A stretch of DNA of 64,000 bases from Bryobacterales bacterium. Lineage in GTDB: Bacteria; Acidobacteriota; Terriglobia; Bryobacterales; Bryobacteraceae. The position numbers and the translations under genes were made by a program. The notes below the pieces were generated by a model, which did no database searches, was not told the DNA's origin, and worked only from the letters and a program-made list of their open reading frames with translations. The stretch spans positions 1-64,000 of the forward strand of contig PLRS01000016.1 of NCBI GenBank assembly GCA_003164035.1, written 5' to 3'. This document shows, in pieces, positions 1,331 to 54,533 of this stretch; within the stretch, counting starts at the first letter, position 1; each line of letters begins with the position of its first letter.

Positions 1331-2328
1331 CGCGCAGAATCCGTTTGCACCCGGCCGTTCCGCGCGCGCGCGTCCCGCCGGAAGAACACCAGCAGGACAG
1401 CTCCGCCCACCAGAACGAAGGCGCCGGCGGCGCCGCGCAGAATGTTGATCGCGATGGCGCCGTACTTTCCCGTAGTGGGATCGTAATGATAGCAATACAG
1501 CAAAATCTCATCCACCGGCGTGCCAATCTTTTCCTGGGAAGCTTCCACCAGGCCCAGCCTCAGATCGCGCGGCGAATAATCCACCCCGTAGAAGTATTTC
1601 GAAATGCGGCCCTCCGGAGTGAGGATCATGATGGCGCTGGCATGGGCGAATTGCTCGGTCGCCGGGTCATATTTGTAATGGAAGCCGACGGCATCGGTAA
1701 ACGCCTTGATATTGGCCTCGTCACCGGTGAGGAAGTGCCAGCCGTTGGCCGAATTCGGGCGCTTGTACCGTTTCACGTACATCTGCTTCTTGGCCGCGGC
1801 CAGCTCCGGGGTATCTTTCGGGTCGAAGCTGATGCTGACGACGTGAAAATCCTTTCCGGCATCGAGCGAAACCGCCTTCAGCGCGCTCTCGAGGCCGGTC
1901 AGGATCTCGGTGCAGAGCATGGGGCAGCGATAGTAGACCAGGGCGAGGATGACCGGCTTGCCGTCGGCGAAGAAGCTGGATAGCGGCAGGACGCGGCCGG
2001 CCTCGTCGCGGAAATCGACGTCCAGCGGGACCTGCTGGTTCAGCCGTTGCTCGATGCTCACGCCGGCGAGGGCGCCCGGCAAGGCGGGCCTCAAATTGGA
2101 ATCCTGCAAGCTGTAGCTGGGCTGCGCCGGAGCGGGCTGGCCGGGCTGAGCCAGAGCCGCCAAGGCAGCCAGCAAGAGGGATGCACAAAGCTTTCCGGCG
2201 GTACTTCCGTGGGGCAGACCATCGTTTCTTGTGGTCTGCCCTACACAGCGCGCTCCGCCAGCATCGAAAGAAGGCCGGCTGGGCAGACCACGAAAAACGA
2301 TGGTCTGCCCCACGGTGATCTGCATCAT
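1327..2328 (-). CDS. SCO1/SenC copper-delivery protein with a repeat element in its N-terminus
   Basis: A 333-residue member of the SCO1/SenC/PrrC family, which delivers copper to the CuA site of subunit II, its operon neighbour. The thioredoxin fold carries the Cu-binding CPMLC motif (YYRCPMLCTEIL) and a conserved His in EQFAHASAIM; a C-terminal membrane helix (GAFVLVGGAVLLVFF) would anchor it. The start at 2328 has a strong AGGAGG eight bases upstream and overlaps the previous stop (ATGA). Residues 6-40 are encoded exactly by a 105-bp palindromic repeat (2209-2313), so the export signal (KLCASLLLAALAALA) begins only after about 43 residues. No in-frame start after the repeat was found, so the repeat appears to be translated. 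Confidence 0.9.
   Translation of the reverse strand: MMQITVGQTIVFRGLPSRPSFDAGGARCVGQTTRNDGLPHGSTAGKLCASLLLAALAALAQPGQPAPAQPSYSLQDSNLRPALPGALAGVSIEQRLNQQVPLDVDFRDEAGRVLPLSSFFADGKPVILALVYYRCPMLCTEILTGLESALKAVSLDAGKDFHVVSISFDPKDTPELAAAKKQMYVKRYKRPNSANGWHFLTGDEANIKAFTDAVGFHYKYDPATEQFAHASAIMILTPEGRISKYFYGVDYSPRDLRLGLVEASQEKIGTPVDEILLYCYHYDPTTGKYGAIAINILRGAAGAFVLVGGAVLLVFFRRDARARNGRVQTDSAR
2209..2313. repeat. Two-armed palindromic element (family A, copy 1), in frame inside the SCO gene
   Basis: Two 33-bp arms, 2209-2241 and 2281-2313, are inverted copies with two mismatches, separated by 39 bp. Each arm is itself a hairpin (GGGCAGACCA ... TGGTCTGCCC around a TCGTTT-type loop). The layout resembles REPIN/BIME elements: two inverted REP-like hairpins. 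The whole unit is 105 bp (35 codons) and stays open in the SCO frame. Copies 2 and 3 are at 4624-4713 and 49821-49910. Confidence 0.9.
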
Positions 2329-2852: not shown

Positions 2853-4047
2853 GATTCAGAGCCTCCTCCAGGTTCGGCTCGTGCAACGGCATCAACGGCC
2901 GCTTCTCTAGTTGGATGAAAAAATACGCCAGCCAGATTCCGATCAGCCCGGCCGGAGCGGCAATATCCATCCAACTCAGGTGGAACGCGCTGCCGTAGAA
3001 GTAAGGCGTCACCTGCCAGAACAGGTCCACCATGCGCATGAACAGCACGAAAATCGCCACGTTGCGCAGCAGCTTGGCATTCCGTTTCAGGTCGCGCGAC
3101 AGCAGGAGGGAAAACGGCAGCGCAAAGTGGAACAGCACCAGCCCCATCGCGATGTACCCCCAACCGCCGTTAGTGCGCGACAGGTACCAGGGAATCTCCT
3201 CGGGCAGATTGCCGGTCCAGATGATCAGAAATTGCGAATAGGAGAAGTACGCCCACACCATGGTCAGCGCGAACATCAGCTTGCCCAGGTCGTGGAAGTG
3301 ACGCTTGGTGAGCACCTGCGACATCGGCGCGCGCGCCTGGAGCGCCACCAGCAGGGCGATCAGAAACGCCATCGAGGTCAGGCCCTGGCCCACCATGAAG
3401 AGCAGTCCGAACATGGTCGAGAACCACTGCGAGTGCAGCGACAGCACCCAATCGATGGACATGAAGGTGACGCTCAGCGACCAGAAAATTACTCCGGGCC
3501 CGGCCAGGAAGGACATCTTGCCATGAGCTTTGGCCGGCCCGTCGCGGTCTTCCACCAGCGACCAGCGGTTGAAATAGTACGACAGGAACATCCAGCCGAA
3601 GAAATACACCAACGCGCGCAACAGGAAAAATCGGTAGTTCAAATACGGCGCCTGGTGGGTCAGCACGCGGTCGGCGGCGACCACCGCCGGGTGCGCCCAC
3701 GGATACAGGTTGGGAATCCCGATGATGATGGGCAGGAACAGCACCAGCACCAGCGGCAAAGTGCGCGCGGCGGCTTCGGCGGGGCGGCGAATGACCACCC
3801 CCCACGCGCCGCCGGTCAGGTATTGCAGCATCAGCCAGGCCAGCGGTCCGACAGCCAAGCCCAGCACAAAGAGGAACGCCCAAAGGTACGACTGGTAGAA
3901 CTGGAAAGGCTGATGGAAAACCAGCAGTCCGGCGGCCATTGCCAGCATGCCGATGACGCCCACGATCAGCGCCCGCGTTCGCCAGCGCCCCAGGTCGGAA
4001 CGGAGCCCATCGGAAACCCGGAAATCGACGCTGGTTTGCGCCGTCAC
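2839..4047 (-). CDS. actF: Alternative complex III membrane subunit ActF
   Basis: A 402-residue polytopic protein with about ten hydrophobic helices, of the NrfD/PsrC-like class, homologous to ActC. ACIII oxidises membrane quinol and passes electrons to a cytochrome c or directly to an oxidase. Visible family features include LYPWAHP near residue 115, FFGWMFLSYYFNRWS, and the long hydrophobic C-terminal half ending in a charged tail. The ATG at 4047 overlaps the actE stop by 4 bp. Position in the actABCDEF order and size agree with ActF; a stand-alone NrfD protein is unlikely here. Confidence 0.93.
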   Translation of the reverse strand: MTAQTSVDFRVSDGLRSDLGRWRTRALIVGVIGMLAMAAGLLVFHQPFQFYQSYLWAFLFVLGLAVGPLAWLMLQYLTGGAWGVVIRRPAEAAARTLPLVLVLFLPIIIGIPNLYPWAHPAVVAADRVLTHQAPYLNYRFFLLRALVYFFGWMFLSYYFNRWSLVEDRDGPAKAHGKMSFLAGPGVIFWSLSVTFMSIDWVLSLHSQWFSTMFGLLFMVGQGLTSMAFLIALLVALQARAPMSQVLTKRHFHDLGKLMFALTMVWAYFSYSQFLIIWTGNLPEEIPWYLSRTNGGWGYIAMGLVLFHFALPFSLLLSRDLKRNAKLLRNVAIFVLFMRMVDLFWQVTPYFYGSAFHLSWMDIAAPAGLIGIWLAYFFIQLEKRPLMPLHEPNLEEALNHGRE

Positions 4048-4637
4048 TGCGCACCTCCCTGGGAGAGCTGCCCGCGCGCGTCGGGAGGCACATCGTTGAG
4101 TGTGCCGTTCTCGCTCAGTTGCAAAGTCCGGATGTAGGAGACAATCGCCCAGCGGTCCGCCGGCGCAACCTGGGCGGCATAATCCTGCATGGCCCCGAAT
4201 CCGTTGGTGATCACGTCGAAGATGTAGCCGGCCTGCACTTGCCGCAGCCGGTCGCTATGGTACGAAGGCGGATGCTTATAGCCGCGCCGCACGATTTTGC
4301 CGTCGCCGAATCCCAGCCGGCCGTGGCACGGAGAGCAATAAACATTGAAGCGGTTCTGGCCCCGTTCGATCACCTGGCGGGTCACCGGGAACGGGAAGGT
4401 TTCCAGGAATGTCTTGCCGTCAGGCCCCTTGCCGGTATAGAAGGCAGCGTCGTCGTCCAGGTGGCCGCGCGGTATCGTCCCCTCGATCAGCGGACGCTGG
4501 GACCGGCCGTCCTCGAAGAATGTGCTGGGCCGCAGCGGAGTATATTTGGGCTGATCCTGCATGTCCGACCGGCAACCCACAGTCGCGGCCAGCGCCAGCA
4601 GGACAACGCCCCAGACAACGGTGGTGGGACAGACCAT
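4044..4637 (-). CDS. actE: Alternative complex III monoheme cytochrome c subunit ActE (start uncertain)
   Basis: A lipoprotein cytochrome c of ACIII. From the ATG at 4637 it is 197 residues: an export signal VVWGVVLLALAATVGC with a lipobox Cys at residue 22, then one heme motif CSPCH and a candidate Met ligand in GFGAMQDY. The start lies inside palindromic element A copy 2 and has no clear Shine-Dalgarno. The frame stays open upstream through the whole element and repeat B; an alternative GTG at 4799 has AGGA upstream and would add 54 repeat-derived residues. The neighbouring act genes overlap by ATGA, so the original actE start has probably been displaced by repeat insertion. The core assignment is secure, the start is not. 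Confidence 0.9.
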   Translation of the reverse strand: MVCPTTVVWGVVLLALAATVGCRSDMQDQPKYTPLRPSTFFEDGRSQRPLIEGTIPRGHLDDDAAFYTGKGPDGKTFLETFPFPVTRQVIERGQNRFNVYCSPCHGRLGFGDGKIVRRGYKHPPSYHSDRLRQVQAGYIFDVITNGFGAMQDYAAQVAPADRWAIVSYIRTLQLSENGTLNDVPPDARGQLSQGGAQ

Positions 4638-4713
4638 CGTTTTTCGTGGTCTGTCATGCCCTGGCCAGTCCGCAACGGCCCGACAGACGACAAAAAACGA
4701 TCGTCTGTCCCAC
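4624..4713. repeat. Two-armed palindromic element (family A, copy 2) at the actE start
   Basis: A 90-bp unit beginning GTGGGACAGACC and ending in its near inverse; each arm is a hairpin of the GACAGACCA/TGGTCTGTC type around a TCGTTTTTCG loop. It has the same length as copy 3 (49821-49910), and the central spacers are similar too (both contain a GCCAG-CCG core). It is open in the actE frame (30 codons) and supplies the only ATG close to the lipoprotein signal. Confidence 0.9.
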
Positions 4714-4753
4714 CGGATGCCCCTGCCGACGCCCGCTGCCACGGAGCGAAGAA

Positions 4754-4799
4754 GCGTCGAGCTGAGACTCGACGCGGCACGCACGAGTGCGTGCGCCAC
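4754..4799. repeat. Double hairpin repeat (type B, copy 1) between actD and actE
   Basis: Two adjacent perfect hairpins: GCGTCGAG/CTCGACGC (4754-4775) and GCACGCAC/GTGCGTGC (4777-4794). The outer sequence GTGGCGCACGCACTCGTGCG, read on the minus strand, recurs at 18954-18973. It lies in what is otherwise a tightly overlapping operon. Confidence 0.75.
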
Positions 4800-4824
4800 G
4801 GTGAAGTTAATCCTGCACTGATCC

Positions 4825-5394
4825 TTAGTGCGCAACTTCGGACACCTCTTTAGCATCCAGGCTCTCCAGGAACTGGGCCGTCTTCTGGCGTTCGAACAGC
4901 GGGTCCTCCGATTCGATGCACAGAAAGAACCGGTCGCGCGATGCCAGCGCGAACCGCTTGGCATTGAACACCGGGTGATACGGCATCGGCAAGCCGCACA
5001 GGCCCAACAGGCCCAACACGGTCGTCAAACCGGCAAATAGAATCGTGCATTCGAAGGTGATGACAAAATACTCCGGCCAGCTATGGAGCGGCCGGCCGCC
5101 CACGTTGATCGGGTAATAGATCACCGTGACGAAGTACTGCAGCAGATAGCCGAGCGCGCCGCCCGTGAGCCCTCCCAGTAGCACCAGCAGGGGCAGACGG
5201 TTGTGATGCAAGTGGAGCGCGTCGGTCAACTCTTCGATCGGAAACGGGGTGTACGCGTCCAGCTTGCGGTAGCCTTTCTCGCGCGCTGCGCGGGCCGCTT
5301 TCACCAGCGCGTTGGGAGTCTGGAATTCGGCGATCAGCCCGTAGGCCGGAGCGCTTTCGGCCGTGGCGTGACCGCTCGCGGAAGGTTCACTCAT
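4825..5394 (-). CDS. actD: Alternative complex III subunit ActD
   Basis: A 189-residue ActD (DUF3341 family). A soluble N-terminal part carries the family pattern YGLIAEFQTPNALVKAARAAREKGYRKLDAYTPFP, followed by two hydrophobic helices around residues 67-90 and 108-135 (LLGGLTGGALGYLLQYF; CTILFAGLTTVLGLLGLCGL). The C-terminal part ends with a FFLCIESEDPLF-type strand. It overlaps actC by 4 bp (ATGA). About 190 bp of repeats separate it from the actE signal sequence, unlike the other junctions of the operon. ActD is a structural membrane subunit without known cofactors. Confidence 0.93.
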   Translation of the reverse strand: MSEPSASGHATAESAPAYGLIAEFQTPNALVKAARAAREKGYRKLDAYTPFPIEELTDALHLHHNRLPLLVLLGGLTGGALGYLLQYFVTVIYYPINVGGRPLHSWPEYFVITFECTILFAGLTTVLGLLGLCGLPMPYHPVFNAKRFALASRDRFFLCIESEDPLFERQKTAQFLESLDAKEVSEVAH

Positions 5395-13379: not shown

Positions 13380-14693
13380 ATGACGAAAAACGAAATCATC
13401 CTGGCCAACCAGGAATTCCTGTTCCCCGCCGTCTTTCATTATTATAAGGAGCCACTGGTAGTGGCTCGCGCCAAGAACCAATACCTTTGGGACGCCGATG
13501 GCAATCAATACCTGGATTTCTTCGGCGGCATCGTTACGGTGAGCGTAGGCCACTCGAACGACCAGGTGAACGCCAGGCTTCACCAACAGATCGACACCCT
13601 GCAGCACGTTTCCACCCTTTTCGCCAATGAGCCGCAAGCGGCCCTGGCCAAGAAAATCGCCTCCATCACGCCGGGCGGCGGCCAACTCACCAAATCGTTC
13701 TTTACCTGTAGCGGCACCGAAGCCAACGAAACCGCCATCCTCGCCGCCCGCTGCTATACCGGCAACACCGAAATCGTGGCCCTGCGCCACTCCTATCACG
13801 GGCGCTCGTCGATGGCCATGTCCCTCACCGGCGTCGGTTCCTGGCGCCTCGGCCCGCCGCAGGCCGGCGTGGTCCACGCCCACAACGCGTATTGCTACCG
13901 CTGCCCCTTCGGCCTGAAATATCCCGATTGCGAAGTCCGCTGCGCCGCCGATATCGAGGAGCTGATCCGCAGCTCCACTTCCGGCCGCATCGCTGGCTTT
14001 ATCGCCGAGCCCATCCAGGGCGTCGGCGGCTTCATCACCCCGCCCAGGGAGTATTTCCGGATCGTCGAAAAGGTGGTCCGCAACTACGGCGGCATCTTCA
14101 TCAGCGACGAAGTCCAGACCGGCTGGGGACGCACCGGCGGCAAGTGGTTCGGCATCGAACAGTATGGCGTCGTGCCCGATATCATCACCGCCGCCAAGGG
14201 GCTGGCCAACGGCAGCCCCATCGGCCTTACCGTGGCCAAACCCGAAGTGGCCGACGCCGTCAAGGGCCTCACCATCTCCACCTTCGGCGGCAACCCCGTC
14301 ACCTGCACCGCCGCCAAAGCCGTCATCGATTTTATCGAAGAGCAGGACCTGCTCACCAACTGCACCGAAACCGGCGCCTATCTGCACGGCCGCCTGGCCG
14401 AACTGAAAGATAAGCACGAAATCATCGGCGAAGTGCGCGGCATGGGCTTAATGGCCGCGCTGGAACTGGTGACCGACCGCCGGAGCAAAACCCCCGCGCC
14501 CGCCGAAACCGCCCTGGCTCTCGAAGCCGCCCGCGAGAACCGCATCATTCTCGGAAAGGGCGGCATGTATGGTAATGTGCTGCGGATCTCCCCGCCCATG
14601 AACGTCGGCCGCTCCGACGTCGACCAGTTTATCCAGCTTCTGGACAAGAGCCTGGCAGCCGCGACCGCCGCCGTGGCCGGGAGCGCGCGATGA
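13380..14693 (+). CDS. Class III aminotransferase of pyrimidine catabolism (beta-alanine/beta-aminoisobutyrate type)
   Basis: A 437-residue PLP-dependent aminotransferase of the AGXT2-like subgroup. Seen in the sequence: YLDFFGGIVTVSVGHSN, the cofactor-binding CSGTEANETA turn, ISDEVQTGWGRTGGKWF with the conserved Asp, and the Schiff-base lysine in IITAAKGLANGSP. Family members move the amino group of beta-alanine or (R)-3-aminoisobutyrate to pyruvate or glyoxylate. The gene opens the operon and overlaps preT by 4 bp (ATGA), so it most likely handles the beta-amino acids released from uracil and thymine. Substrate choice is inferred from context. Confidence 0.9.
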   Translation: MTKNEIILANQEFLFPAVFHYYKEPLVVARAKNQYLWDADGNQYLDFFGGIVTVSVGHSNDQVNARLHQQIDTLQHVSTLFANEPQAALAKKIASITPGGGQLTKSFFTCSGTEANETAILAARCYTGNTEIVALRHSYHGRSSMAMSLTGVGSWRLGPPQAGVVHAHNAYCYRCPFGLKYPDCEVRCAADIEELIRSSTSGRIAGFIAEPIQGVGGFITPPREYFRIVEKVVRNYGGIFISDEVQTGWGRTGGKWFGIEQYGVVPDIITAAKGLANGSPIGLTVAKPEVADAVKGLTISTFGGNPVTCTAAKAVIDFIEEQDLLTNCTETGAYLHGRLAELKDKHEIIGEVRGMGLMAALELVTDRRSKTPAPAETALALEAARENRIILGKGGMYGNVLRISPPMNVGRSDVDQFIQLLDKSLAAATAAVAGSAR

Positions 14694-16060
14694 GCCATGC
14701 ATCGGCCTCCTTGCGCCCGGCGCCGGCCGTTCCGCGCAATCTCGAGCAGTTCCCCGAGTTGCATCCGCCCCTCGATCCACAGTCGGCCATTGCCGAAGCC
14801 AACCGCTGCCTGTTCTGCTTCGACGCCCCATGTACCGGCGCCTGCCCCACCCACATCGATGTGCCGCGCTTCATCAAGAAAATCGCCTCCGGCAACCTGC
14901 GCGGCTCGGCATCGACCATTCTCGATGCCAACATTCTGGGCCTGAGCTGCTCCCGCGTCTGCCCGGTCGACGTGCTCTGCGAAGGCGCCTGCGTGCTGCA
15001 CCGTTACAATAAGAAGCCCATCGAGATCGGCCGCCTCCAGCGCTACGCCATGGACGCCTTCTATGCCGCTTCGGGCGGCGTCGCCGCCCCCTTCCCGGTT
15101 CCTCCCGTCGCGGATCGAACTCAAAAGGCGGCGTGCATCGGCGGCGGCCCGGCATCGCTCGCTTGCGCCGCCGAGTTGCGCCGCCACGGCTATCCGGTCG
15201 CCGTATTCGACAACCGCGCCTTTCCCGGCGGCCTCAACACCTACGGCGTCGCCGAATACAAGCTGCGCCCGTCCGACAGCCTCAGAGAGGTGGAGATGGT
15301 TCGCTCCCTGGGAGTCGAATTCCGCCAGGCCGACGTCGGCGTTTCCGTTTCCCTGGAGGCCATCGAGGAAGAGTTCGCCCTCGTCTTTCTCGGCATGGGA
15401 TTGGGCGCCATGGAGCGGCTCGATATTCCCGGCGAGGACCTGCGCGGCGTCATCGATGCACTGCATTTCATCGAACGCTACAAAACCGCCGCGGATTTCG
15501 CCGTGGGCAAAAGAGTGGTCGTGATCGGAGCCGGCAATACCGCCATCGATGCCGCCAACGCCGCGCGCCGCCTGGGCGCCGAGGAGGTCCATATTTTCTA
15601 TCGCCGCACCGAGCGCGAAATGCCCGCCTTCGGCTTCGAATTCGCGCACGCCAAGCTGGAGGGCGTCCGTTTCCATTGGCTCGCCCAACCGGTCGAAATC
15701 TTCGGCCGCGATGGCCGCGTCACCGGTGTCAAGTTCCAGGAAACCAGCCTGTCGGGTACCCATGCCGGCGGGCGCCGCAAGGTCTTGCCCGTCCCCGGTG
15801 TCTTTTTCGAATGCGCCTGCGATATGCTCATCCCCGCCCTGGGACAATCGCGCCTCACCGGCTTGCTCGAACACAAACAGGGCCTCGAGGTGTCGGGCGG
15901 CGTGATCGTGGTGGAACGCGCCACCGGCCAAACGGGCAATCCCCGCTATTTTGCCGGCGGCGATTGCGTCAACGGAGGCCGCGAAGTGGTCGATGCGGTG
16001 GCCGACGGGAAACGCGCCGCGGCTGGCATGATCGCCCGCCTGGGGGCCCGGCATGGCTAA
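14690..16060 (+). CDS. preT: NAD(P)H-dependent dihydropyrimidine dehydrogenase, flavin/Fe-S subunit PreT
   Basis: A 456-residue glutamate-synthase-small-subunit-like protein. The N-terminal domain carries two cysteine clusters (CLFCFDAPCTGACPTHID and CSRVCPVDVLCEGAC), then an FAD-binding GGGPASL motif near residue 145, a NAD(P)H-binding VVVIGAGNTAIDAANAARRLG near residue 270 and a C-terminal GGDCVNGG flavin motif. With PreA it reduces uracil and thymine to the 5,6-dihydro bases. It overlaps both neighbours (4 and 8 bp), consistent with a stoichiometric two-subunit enzyme. Confidence 0.93.
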   Translation: MSHASASLRPAPAVPRNLEQFPELHPPLDPQSAIAEANRCLFCFDAPCTGACPTHIDVPRFIKKIASGNLRGSASTILDANILGLSCSRVCPVDVLCEGACVLHRYNKKPIEIGRLQRYAMDAFYAASGGVAAPFPVPPVADRTQKAACIGGGPASLACAAELRRHGYPVAVFDNRAFPGGLNTYGVAEYKLRPSDSLREVEMVRSLGVEFRQADVGVSVSLEAIEEEFALVFLGMGLGAMERLDIPGEDLRGVIDALHFIERYKTAADFAVGKRVVVIGAGNTAIDAANAARRLGAEEVHIFYRRTEREMPAFGFEFAHAKLEGVRFHWLAQPVEIFGRDGRVTGVKFQETSLSGTHAGGRRKVLPVPGVFFECACDMLIPALGQSRLTGLLEHKQGLEVSGGVIVVERATGQTGNPRYFAGGDCVNGGREVVDAVADGKRAAAGMIARLGARHG

Positions 16061-23345: not shown

Positions 23346-23491
23346 AGGTGCTTAACCGATCTGGGGATTTCACAGTTGAGTCCCGGCAACCGCTCCCTTG
23401 ACGGTCGCGGCTTCGGTTACGGACACCGCGTGTTTGCAGTCACTTACCGAGCCGCGACCGTAAGGGACGGTTACCGGAAACTAACTCCCCC
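23346..23491. repeat. Long inverted repeat (family C, copy 1)
   Basis: An imperfect palindrome of about 146 bp. The left half holds CGGCAACCGCTCCCTTGACGGTCGCGGCTTCGGTTAC-type sequence and the right half its inverse (GAGCCGCGACCG, AGGGACGGTTACCGG). The outer part starts GGTGCTTAACCGATCTGGG, as in copy 2, but the matching right terminus is missing. It lies in the 232-bp gap between the divergent beta-helix and QueG-like genes. Confidence 0.85.
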
Positions 23492-29391: not shown

Positions 29392-29555
29392 GGGGTGCTT
29401 AATCGATCTGGGATTTCGCAGTTTAGGCGCGGCAACCGCTCCCTTACGGTCGCGGCTTCGGTTACGGACATTGCGTGTTTGCTGTCACTTGCCGAGCCGC
29501 GACCGTCAGGGAGCGGTTGCCGGGAGCTAATTCCCCCAAGTCGGTTAAGCACCCC
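29392..29555. repeat. Long inverted repeat (family C, copy 2), complete with terminal repeats
   Basis: A 164-bp palindrome with matching ends GGGGTGCTTAA ... TTAAGCACCCC and inner arms GCGGCAACCGCTCCCTTACGG / CAGGGAGCGGTTGCC around a GGTCGCGGCTTCGG core. It is the most complete copy; the others are at 23346-23491 and 54441-54533. It fills most of the 380-bp gap 29305-29684 between divergent uxaC and the multicopper oxidase gene; the rest shows no gene. Confidence 0.88.
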
Positions 29556-43693: not shown

Positions 43694-46600
43694 TTCTCGG
43701 CTCCAATGGTGAAATAAAAGCTGGCTCCCAGGTCTGGCTCGGCTTCGGCCCAAATACGGCCGCCGTGACGGTGAATCACGCGCTGCACGGTAGCCAGACC
43801 GATGCCGGTGCCGGGGAATTCGGAATCGCTGTGCAGGCGCTGAAAAGCGCCGAAAAGCGTACCGGCGTAAGCCATGTCAAAACCCACGCCATTGTCGCGA
43901 ACCACGAACGCGGTCTGCCCCTCGTAGTTAGCGGTTCCAAACTCAATGCGCGCATGCGCGCACGGTCCGGTGAACTTCACCGCGTTTTCGAGTAGGTTGG
44001 TCAATGCAACTTCGAGCAGGCGGGCGTCACCGAAAGCCGTCAGCGCCGGCCGGATCGCGAATTCCAGGTCCCGTTGCGGATTGGCCTCACGGAGCCTGGC
44101 GGCGATCGATTCGGCGGCCCGGCTCAGGTCCACCGCGTGGCGATGCATCTCCGCGCGGGTAATGCGGGAAAGCTGCAGCATATCGTCAATCAGGTGCCCC
44201 ATGCGCTGGGTCTCGGAACGGACGCGGTCCAGGTACTCGCGGCCTTTTCCTTTGTACTTCTCGCACTGGCTGCAATAGTCCTCGATTAATGCCAACGTCC
44301 AGCCGTCTATGCCCCGCAGCGGCGCGCGCAAGTCGTGGGATACCGAGTAGGCGAACGCCTCCAGCTCCTTGTTGGAGGCTTCGAGCTGAGAGGTGCGATC
44401 GCGGACGCGCTGTTCCAGTTCGGTATTGAGCCGGCGAATCTCCTCTTCCGTCCGCTTGCGGTCCGTAATGTCGCGCGCCACAACCACCGACCCGGCGATC
44501 CGACCGTCCGGGTCCCGAATGGGGCCGAAGCTGTAACTTCCAATCCAGGTTTCGCCGGTGTCTTTGCGCCGCAAAGTGTATTCGGCGCTGGTGGCCACTT
44601 CGCCCCGCAGGGCGCGCGGCACCGCCCACATCTCCAGCGGCGCCGGGGTTCCGTCCGGAAGGAACACATCCAGAATGGCGGGGTACTCGGCAAGGGTCTT
44701 GGCGCATTCCTCCTTAGTCGAGAACCGGTGGAACGTCGCGAACGCGTCGTTGATATGGATAAACCGCCCCTCGGCGTCGGAAATGAAGACAGCCTCGGTC
44801 ATGCTGGCCAACGCCGCCTCCAGCTTCGACCGGCTTTCCCGCAGCGCCTCCTCCGTCCGCTTGCGTTGGGTAACGTCCCGGAAAAACTGCGACATACCGT
44901 CCGCCGACGGGTGGACACTTACCTCAGTCCACATCTTCAGGGGCGCATAATAATCCTCGAAGGTCAGGCTGACCTGCTCTGCAATTGCGCGCTCGTATCG
45001 GACCAGGAAGGCGGTTGCGTCGGGATAGAGCACGCGCATGTCCTGGCCCAGCAACTCCTCGCGCTTGCGCCCTTGCAGACGCTCCGCCGCGGCATTTACG
45101 TACGTATAGCGCCACTCGCGGTCGCAGGCGACGAACCCGTCGCCGAGGCTCTCCAGGATGCCCGCGAGCTTTTCGTGGGCAAGCCGCAGCGCCTCTTCAG
45201 TCGCCGCTTGCTCGGTCACATCCCACACAATCGCCAGGATCGATGGTTCGTCGCCCGCGGCGGAGGGCAAGCGCACGACCTGGCCATCCCATATGGCGTT
45301 GGGCTTACCTGGGATAGGCGCTCCGAAGCGTTCCACAATCCAAGGCTCACCGGTCTCGATCACCTGCTGGAGCCTCGCTTCGGCGCCCGCGGCGGCGGCT
45401 TGCGGGAACGCTTCCCGGTAAGGTCGTCCAACGAATTGAACTTCAGGCCCGACCATTGCCTGGTACGCCGGATTGACCATCTCGAACACGAGGTCGCGCC
45501 CTTTGCAAACCGAGATGCCATAAGGCGCACTGGCGAGAAGGCGGGCCAGAAACTCGCGCTGCCGGCGTTGCTCGGATTCGCTCTCGCGGAGGGCCTCCTC
45601 GGCCTGCTTGCGTTCGGTAATGTCGCGATTGATTTCGAGGTATCCAGCCGGCTGGCCCGCATCGTCGCGCTGGAGAACCTGGCGGCTTTCGACCGCGATT
45701 TGCCGCCCGTCGGAACGGGTGTGGGCCAGCTCTCCATGCCAGCGGCCTTCCCGAGCCAGAATCCGGTCCACCTCCGCGATAGGGGTCGACGAGCTGGTGT
45801 GCAGGAGTTCATGCATCGTCTGGCCCACCGCTTCTTTCTCCGCCCAGCCGTACATCTCTTGCGCGCCGGAGTTCCATCCGGTGATGACGCGGTTGCCGTC
45901 AGCCGTGATGATGGCGTCGTGGGAAAGGTCTATCAGCCGGGACTGGCGGGCCAGCACCACTTCCGCCTGGTTGCGCTCGTGGATATGGCGCTCGATGGCA
46001 CCACCCGCCAGGATCAGCAGAAGCACCAGGGATCCACTGCCCAACCCCAGAATCCAGCGGGTGCGCGAGTCGGCCGCGCTGGCGGCCATGGCGCGGCTGT
46101 GGAGGAGCCGGCGCTCTTCGTTATCCACGGCGTCCAGGATGGCCCTCAGTTGATCCCCCCTTTCCTTGCCGCGGTTGGCGCGGACCAGGTCGGCGACGGC
46201 CGCCGTTCCCTGCTGCCTGCGCAGCTCGATTGCACCGGCCAGCATATCCAGCCTGGTCCGCAATAGCTGGTCGAACTCGTCCAGGCGAGCCTGTTCGACT
46301 GGGTTATCGGCGGTCAGGAGGCGGAGAGTGGCTCGCACCTGCCGTTCGGAAGCGATGGCCGACTGGTATGCTTCGAGATACTGGTCGCTTCCGGTAAGCA
46401 GATATCCGCGCTGGGACGTTTGAGCGCGCTCCAGGTACGATCGCACAGAGCTGGCCGCGTTGAGCACCTGGTACGTGTGCTCGATCCACCGTTCGGCGTT
46501 CGTGGAGCGCTGCAAGCCATTCCAAAGCAAGGAGGCCAGAATACCTAATGCCACCGCGGCGGCGGCGACCGTGGCAACCCGCCGCAACAGGGGCGTCCCA

Positions 46601-49820: not shown

Positions 49821-49910
49821 GTGGGACAGACCATCGTTTTTCGCGGTCTGTCGGCTCCTCGCCAGGCCGTAACAGCCTGACAGACGACCAAAAACGATCG
49901 TCTGTCCCAC
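49821..49910. repeat. Two-armed palindromic element (family A, copy 3)
   Basis: A 90-bp unit from GTGGGACAGACC to its inverse GTCTGTCCCAC, with hairpin arms around TCGTTTTTCG/CAAAAACGA loops. It is the same length as copy 2 and shares part of the central spacer (GCCAGGCCG-AAC). This copy is intergenic, between the ends of the LarA-like gene and the convergent GntR gene, and could act as a bidirectional terminator. Confidence 0.9.
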
Positions 49911-54440: not shown

Positions 54441-54533
54441 TCGGCAACCGCTCCCTTGCGGTCGCGGCTCGGTTACGGGCACCGCTCGTTTGCAGCCGCC
54501 TACCGAGTCGCGACCGCCAGGGAGCGGTTGCCG
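54441..54533. repeat. Long inverted repeat (family C, copy 3), short form
   Basis: Inner arms CGGCAACCGCTCCCTTGCGG and CCAGGGAGCGGTTGCCG are conserved; the GGTGCTTAA outer ends of copies 1 and 2 are missing. It lies between the receptor terminator and the end of the convergent esterase gene. Confidence 0.85.

Follow-up and report, generated by a model that had tools for sequence, protein, structure and literature searches.

An in-frame REPIN-like palindromic element between the predicted start and the signal-peptide core of a SCO1/SenC gene, with similar insertions before other signal peptides, in a Bryobacterales bacterium

Near one end of the window (the whole 64,000-nucleotide stretch analysed), a gene on the minus strand at positions 1327-2328 encodes a SCO1/SenC copper-delivery protein, identified by its match to Pfam PF02630 (44.7 bits, cut-off 22.8) and by a CPMLC sequence corresponding to the CxxxC copper motif. 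Its first five native codons, ATG ATG CAG ATC ACC (2328-2314), are preceded immediately by AGGAGG and overlap the TGA of an upstream ORF on the same strand (2325-2852), with which the gene appears to be coupled. Directly after these codons, at a codon boundary, lies an element of exactly 105 nt (2209-2313) bounded by GTGGGGCAG and CTGCCCCAC, which contributes 35 codons (VGQTIVFRGLPSRPSFDAGGARCVGQTTRNDGLPH) to the gene and is followed at once by the signal-peptide core. It is a real element, in frame and free of stops, and it consists of two short, closely spaced, facing imperfect palindromes, the arrangement that defines a REPIN: one REP arm at 2209-2244 on the plus strand, GTGGGGCAGACCATCG...TGGTCTGCCCTAC, and an opposing, inverted arm at 2278-2313. 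The two arms also pair with each other, so that the single strand is predicted to fold at -45.9 kcal/mol (z = -10.3), and a strong RNA hairpin is predicted to start 16 nt into the gene. The two-armed palindrome described in the original prediction, 35 codons in frame after MMQIT, is thus exact in both coordinates and codon boundary.

That prediction had also placed a ribosome-binding-site-backed start before the element, and had named proof of a start beyond it as a result that would refute the prediction. No in-frame ATG or GTG occurs between the element and the hydrophobic core of the SCO protein, the only candidates being TTG codons inside the core itself. Given an ATGATG that has Shine-Dalgarno support and overlaps the stop of the preceding ORF, and the lack of a usable later start ahead of the core, translation most likely begins upstream of the element, which would give a long N-terminus including the element-encoded stretch VGQTIVFRGLPSRPSF...

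The element belongs to a dispersed repeat family, designated family A, whose arm GGGCAGACCATCGTTTTT occurs 233 times (≤2 mismatches) in the 8.0-Mb genome, against no occurrence of the reversed control; the genome-wide count called for by the original prediction is therefore high. Two subfamilies can be distinguished. A1, to which the SCO copy belongs, is built on GTGGGGCAGACCATCG with a variable core, while A2, built on GTGGGACAGACSATCG, is about 90 nt long and includes the two other copies in the window, one supplying 30 codons in frame to the n-region of actE (4624-4713) and one with no indication of translation (49821-49910). The match to two further window copies was therefore correctly noticed, although both are of the sister subfamily rather than of A1. 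Family-A arms have GTGG/CCAC at their outer ends and often GTAG inside; many A1 arms have this GTAG at their inner end (GTAGGGCAG), and it is absent from other A1 arms and from A2. The analysis covered 117 stretches around arms among the matches listed, which makes the in-gene copies described below a sample rather than a census; these stretches and the window together contain 147 element loci, and both arms are present at 73. According to a simple codon-usage model, most of these loci lie outside genes, so that the family combines high copy number, dispersal and a largely extragenic position, as is typical of REPINs. Its neighbours are convergent in 43 cases and divergent in 15, a lean towards gene 3' ends like that of other REPs (PMC3733652), and 40 of the 160 gene stops facing family-A elements lie within 20 nt of the element. 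The inserts in SCO and in four of the other genes discussed below (L080, L135, L174 and L113), as well as a different insert in the SCO gene of the relative G030, likewise start some 11-44 nt past an upstream stop; because the genes overlap, this distance falls in the interior of the next gene.

A putative agent of this dispersal is encoded in the same genome. Among 12 matches to Y1 transposases, a gene for a protein of 172 residues (G000:C158, locus L035, 1315-1833) lies between inverted family-A arms, into one of which its C-terminus runs. The product matches Pfam PF01797 (Y1_Tnp; 39.9 bits, cut-off 23), NCBIfam NF047646 (REP-associated tyrosine transposase; 78.7 bits against a cut-off of 80) and the solved structure of TnpArep (PDB 4er8; E = 1.5e-6), and it holds HVH (HxH) and YVESNPVRAGL, with a catalytic tyrosine assigned by inspection. 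It therefore has the Y1/HUH transposase domain, with HxH and catalytic tyrosine, by which RAYTs are recognized. Its closest homologues, 56-64% identical, are found in G020, G030 and G036, which are also the relatives richest in family-A arms (26, 64 and 17, respectively, compared with 10 in G017 and at most two in the other relatives). In G020 and G036, as in L035, the RAYT gene is bracketed by the same repeats, another hallmark of REPIN systems. That family A has been moved by a RAYT of the L035 type is thus well supported by sequence comparison. Two further observations concern transposases of this kind. The contig of the window has, about 16 kb past the window, a RAYT-like match (L349, G000:C126:80185-80412; 54% identity over 77 residues). 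Elsewhere, another RAYT gene (G000:C166:14744-15283) is bracketed by inverted arms of a different family, GTGGGGCGGACC (14651-14673 and 15293-15315), and on account of this bracketing that second REP family may have a transposase of its own.

Comparison with SCO orthologues supports the view that the 35-codon element is an insertion. In four related genera, orthologues with 69-75% identity begin to align no earlier than about residue 29 and in most cases only past the element, and neither they nor more distant orthologues possess the 35 residues; the nearest comparison genomes are those of other genera, so the comparison is made at the level of orthologues rather than of base-level empty sites. 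Three of the four close orthologues have plain short signals (MNRNIAIAQALCAGSLFAAAALAQPGQP, MRESLVVFVLAALPALAQPGQP and MRRIQGCLILVAAACAASAQPGQP), compared with MMQIT, 35 residues and GSTAGKLCASLLLAALAALAQPGQP here. The same site in the fourth, from G030, is occupied by a palindromic insert of a different kind: MAAHASA precedes an insert bounded by GTAGGGCGGACCCCCTGGTCCGC and GGGGGGTCCGCCCTGC, after which GCAVVLLFTALAAFAQPGQP follows. The palindromic motif of this insert is found (≤3 mismatches) at 121 places in G030 and at 56 in the window's genome. Since it is a different repeat at the same place, two REP families are judged, from these sequences, to have entered the orthologous SCO gene independently, each in a different genus. 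The proposal that the element had moved in is thus upheld, both by its absence from every relative compared and by its membership of a dispersed, lineage-specific family.

The SCO gene of this soil bacterium is not an isolated case. At least five other genes are predicted to carry a family-A element in frame between start and signal-peptide core, namely actE, L080, L135, L174 and L113, and in every one the start overlaps the upstream stop. L080 reads MKKLAV, element, KTLAILAVALAPALVFG, with an ATGA overlap and AAGGAGA upstream. In L135, a relative of M1 peptidases, MFSRTPRRTGS precedes the element and VLTPALALLALALPLSAQ follows it, the start overlapping a TAG. L174, presumably a SurA-like protein on recognition of its sequence (neither it nor L080 has a Pfam match), has a TTG start within TTGA and reads MKERGQT, element, QLLLALLALLPLAASA. 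L113, which encodes a GH3 enzyme, has a GTG start within GTGA, and 16 residues and the element come before its signal peptide. In the orthologues of L080, L135 and L174 the signal peptides are short and contain no family-A insert, the insert is also missing from the orthologues of L113, and the overlapping start is kept in relatives of L135 and L174; the L174 orthologue in G020 (L241) has an element of its own upstream, with an assembly gap (NNN) over the frame. As in SCO, no in-frame ATG or GTG occurs between element and core in L080 and L174. In three copies (L084:4469-4504 on the minus strand, L303:2498-2586 and window 4624-4713), the element's own ATG (CGATGGTCTGYCCCAC, encoding MVCPT) immediately precedes a signal-peptide core in the same frame and is a possible start codon.

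The actE case is more complex than the single in-frame copy that had been reported. This gene, for an actE-like cytochrome c lipoprotein (4044-4835, minus strand), is read from a TTG overlapping the actD stop, and its orthologues likewise have a TTG start after GAGGTGTCCGAAG or a close variant, overlapping the actD stop. From the TTG at 4835 it would encode MRTKDQCRINFT, about 30 residues from a second repeat, family B, 30 residues from family A and then TVVWGVVLLALAATVGC. The n-region thus holds two unrelated palindromic repeats, of which family B (core 4747-4799, minus strand, in frame) is the first after the upstream stop. Family B gave 41 matches in 1.1 Mb of the genome. It recurs in actE of G020, at the same distance from the TTG and followed by further palindromic sequence, in frame before the lipoprotein core LRRRAPLLLVLALASLFAAC in L175 (TTGA overlap with GAGGAGG), and in frame before a signal core in L129. 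The window contains other repeats as well. A third palindromic family, CCCTTACGGTCGCGGCTTCGGTTACGG...CCGAGCCGCGACCGTCAGGGA, is present in three copies (23396-23467, 29441-29512 and 54452-54523), and related sequence is nested in the family-A element of L186. A direct repeat some 41 nt long, which occurs three times in the 1.2 kb at 44435-45627, probably represents repeated domains of one protein.

Nine family-A elements (in SCO, actE, L080, L135, L174, L113, L084, L176 and L303) lie directly before a coding stretch that itself has no convincing start, the start of L176 being uncertain and L084 and L303 being possible cases of a start at the element's ATG. All nine stretches have a hydrophobic stretch within 35 residues, compared with 26% of 507 baseline genes; the probability of this by chance is 6e-6, or 2e-4 for nine of 11 if two dubious loci are counted against, for a set hand-picked from the sample of listed copies after the pattern had been noticed, and under a crude hydropathy rule. 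The enrichment is support for the pattern, not proof of it. No clear in-frame N-terminal copy in a cytosolic protein was found at the family-A loci among the matches listed. Several candidate intragenic copies were set aside: in L131 a YjbR domain starts downstream of the element and the arms have diverged, L144 and L108:8764 are weak arm matches in ordinary genes, L345 likely has a later start and the frame of L148 is ambiguous. L137 carries only one arm, in an ORF for a membrane protein in which the frame looks broken further on.

How might such a pattern arise? The element would be a non-autonomous, REPIN-like REP doublet spread by the RAYT still encoded between the same arms. RAYT-dispersed REPs would accumulate close to gene 3' ends, and in a packed operon, where the next start overlaps the stop and leaves no spacer, an insertion would land a few codons into the next gene. 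There it would persist only if it kept the frame, contained no stop and did no harm. In the cytoplasmic n-region of a Sec or lipoprotein signal peptide, 20-35 added residues before the hydrophobic core would be tolerated, and these would be removed with the signal peptide once the protein is exported, leaving the mature protein unchanged, whereas an N-terminal insert of this size elsewhere would usually be harmful. That RAYT-dispersed REPs land near 3' ends and survive mainly in cleavable signal peptides appears to us a probable explanation of the whole. The main challenge to it is the argument, made for P. putida, C. koseri and S. maltophilia (PMC3733652), that such elements are untranslated and lie in 5' leaders, with translation starting from or past their 3' end. 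This is what L125, L133, L151 and L173, in which a copy lies just before a good start, would suggest, as would the possible MVCPT starts of L303 and L084. As a general account it nevertheless seems unlikely, because SCO, L080 and L174 offer no ATG or GTG between element and core, and because Shine-Dalgarno-like sequences accompany the upstream starts, which overlap the preceding stop and in L135, L174 and actE are kept in relatives.

The original prediction had proposed instead that copies stay open through selection for codable insertions or have been domesticated as N-terminal leaders. Most paired copies do have at least three of six frames open, as would be expected if the family were under selection for codability so that copies land in genes harmlessly. 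However, the number of open frames per copy in the 72 paired copies is 0-6, much as in random windows drawn from this genome, and the majority of copies are extragenic, which makes such selection very improbable. Because stops are no rarer in the elements than in random genomic DNA, the filter would act on insertions and not on the design of the element. Domestication, in which a hairpin past the start codon or a longer n-region would tune translation or export, might be suggested by the strong hairpin near the start of the SCO gene and by the several repeats piled up in actE. We found no positive evidence for an N-terminal leader, though: the frame in which the element is read varies among insertions, so that no shared peptide has been kept, and relatives do without the inserts. 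We regard domestication as improbable, if less so than selection for codability. Tolerance inside a cleaved signal peptide fits the pattern better than either.

REPs owe their name to being extragenic. The present system resembles known REP/REPIN-RAYT systems with GTAG-tagged REPs (PMC3733652, PMC3116915) in having imperfect palindromes that are short and form inverted doublets, copies in the hundreds, a RAYT gene flanked by these repeats, and a lean towards gene 3' ends. Intragenic REPs encoding 20-30 residues have been described (PMC3733652, PMC3116915), and N-terminal ones have mostly been attributed to misannotated starts (PMC3733652). Here, by contrast, both gene overlap and orthologues fix the starts, and the elements lie in the n-regions of signal peptides. 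The palindromic elements of Rickettsia (RPEs; PMC10969869) are also found in frame, and apparently tolerated, in unrelated genes, but they occur in many kinds of protein rather than before signal-peptide cores. A CGTC tag has been reported at one end of R. conorii RPEs, whereas the arms here end in GTGG or GTAG and no CGTC was found at their ends. The only type of case that we found in the literature linking REPs to signal peptides is that of the enterobacterial RU-2 in YPO1552 of Yersinia (PMC2759123), which concerns chiefly one locus and in which the element supplies part of the signal itself, while the elements described here, from two repeat families, extend the n-regions of signals that already exist, and do so in many genes. 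We found no description of in-frame insertions that recur in the n-regions of signal peptides where starts overlap, involve more than one repeat family and affect orthologous genes in different genera.

With starts pinned by overlapping genes and orthologues, a real in-frame insertion is the simpler reading, and the findings suggest that signal peptides, which are cut off, are a tolerated place for mobile palindromic repeats. Several REP families appear repeatedly in n-regions at overlapping starts, and it is possible, if somewhat less likely than not, that cleavable signal peptides generally shelter translated mobile DNA in compact bacterial genomes, where inserts may also modulate coupled translation or export. 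This would offer a concrete rule for the tolerance of mobile DNA in a compact genome, namely insertion into a part of the protein that is discarded. On this view, genomes rich in REPs should have signal-peptide n-regions of unusual length, and annotation pipelines should not shift such starts downstream.
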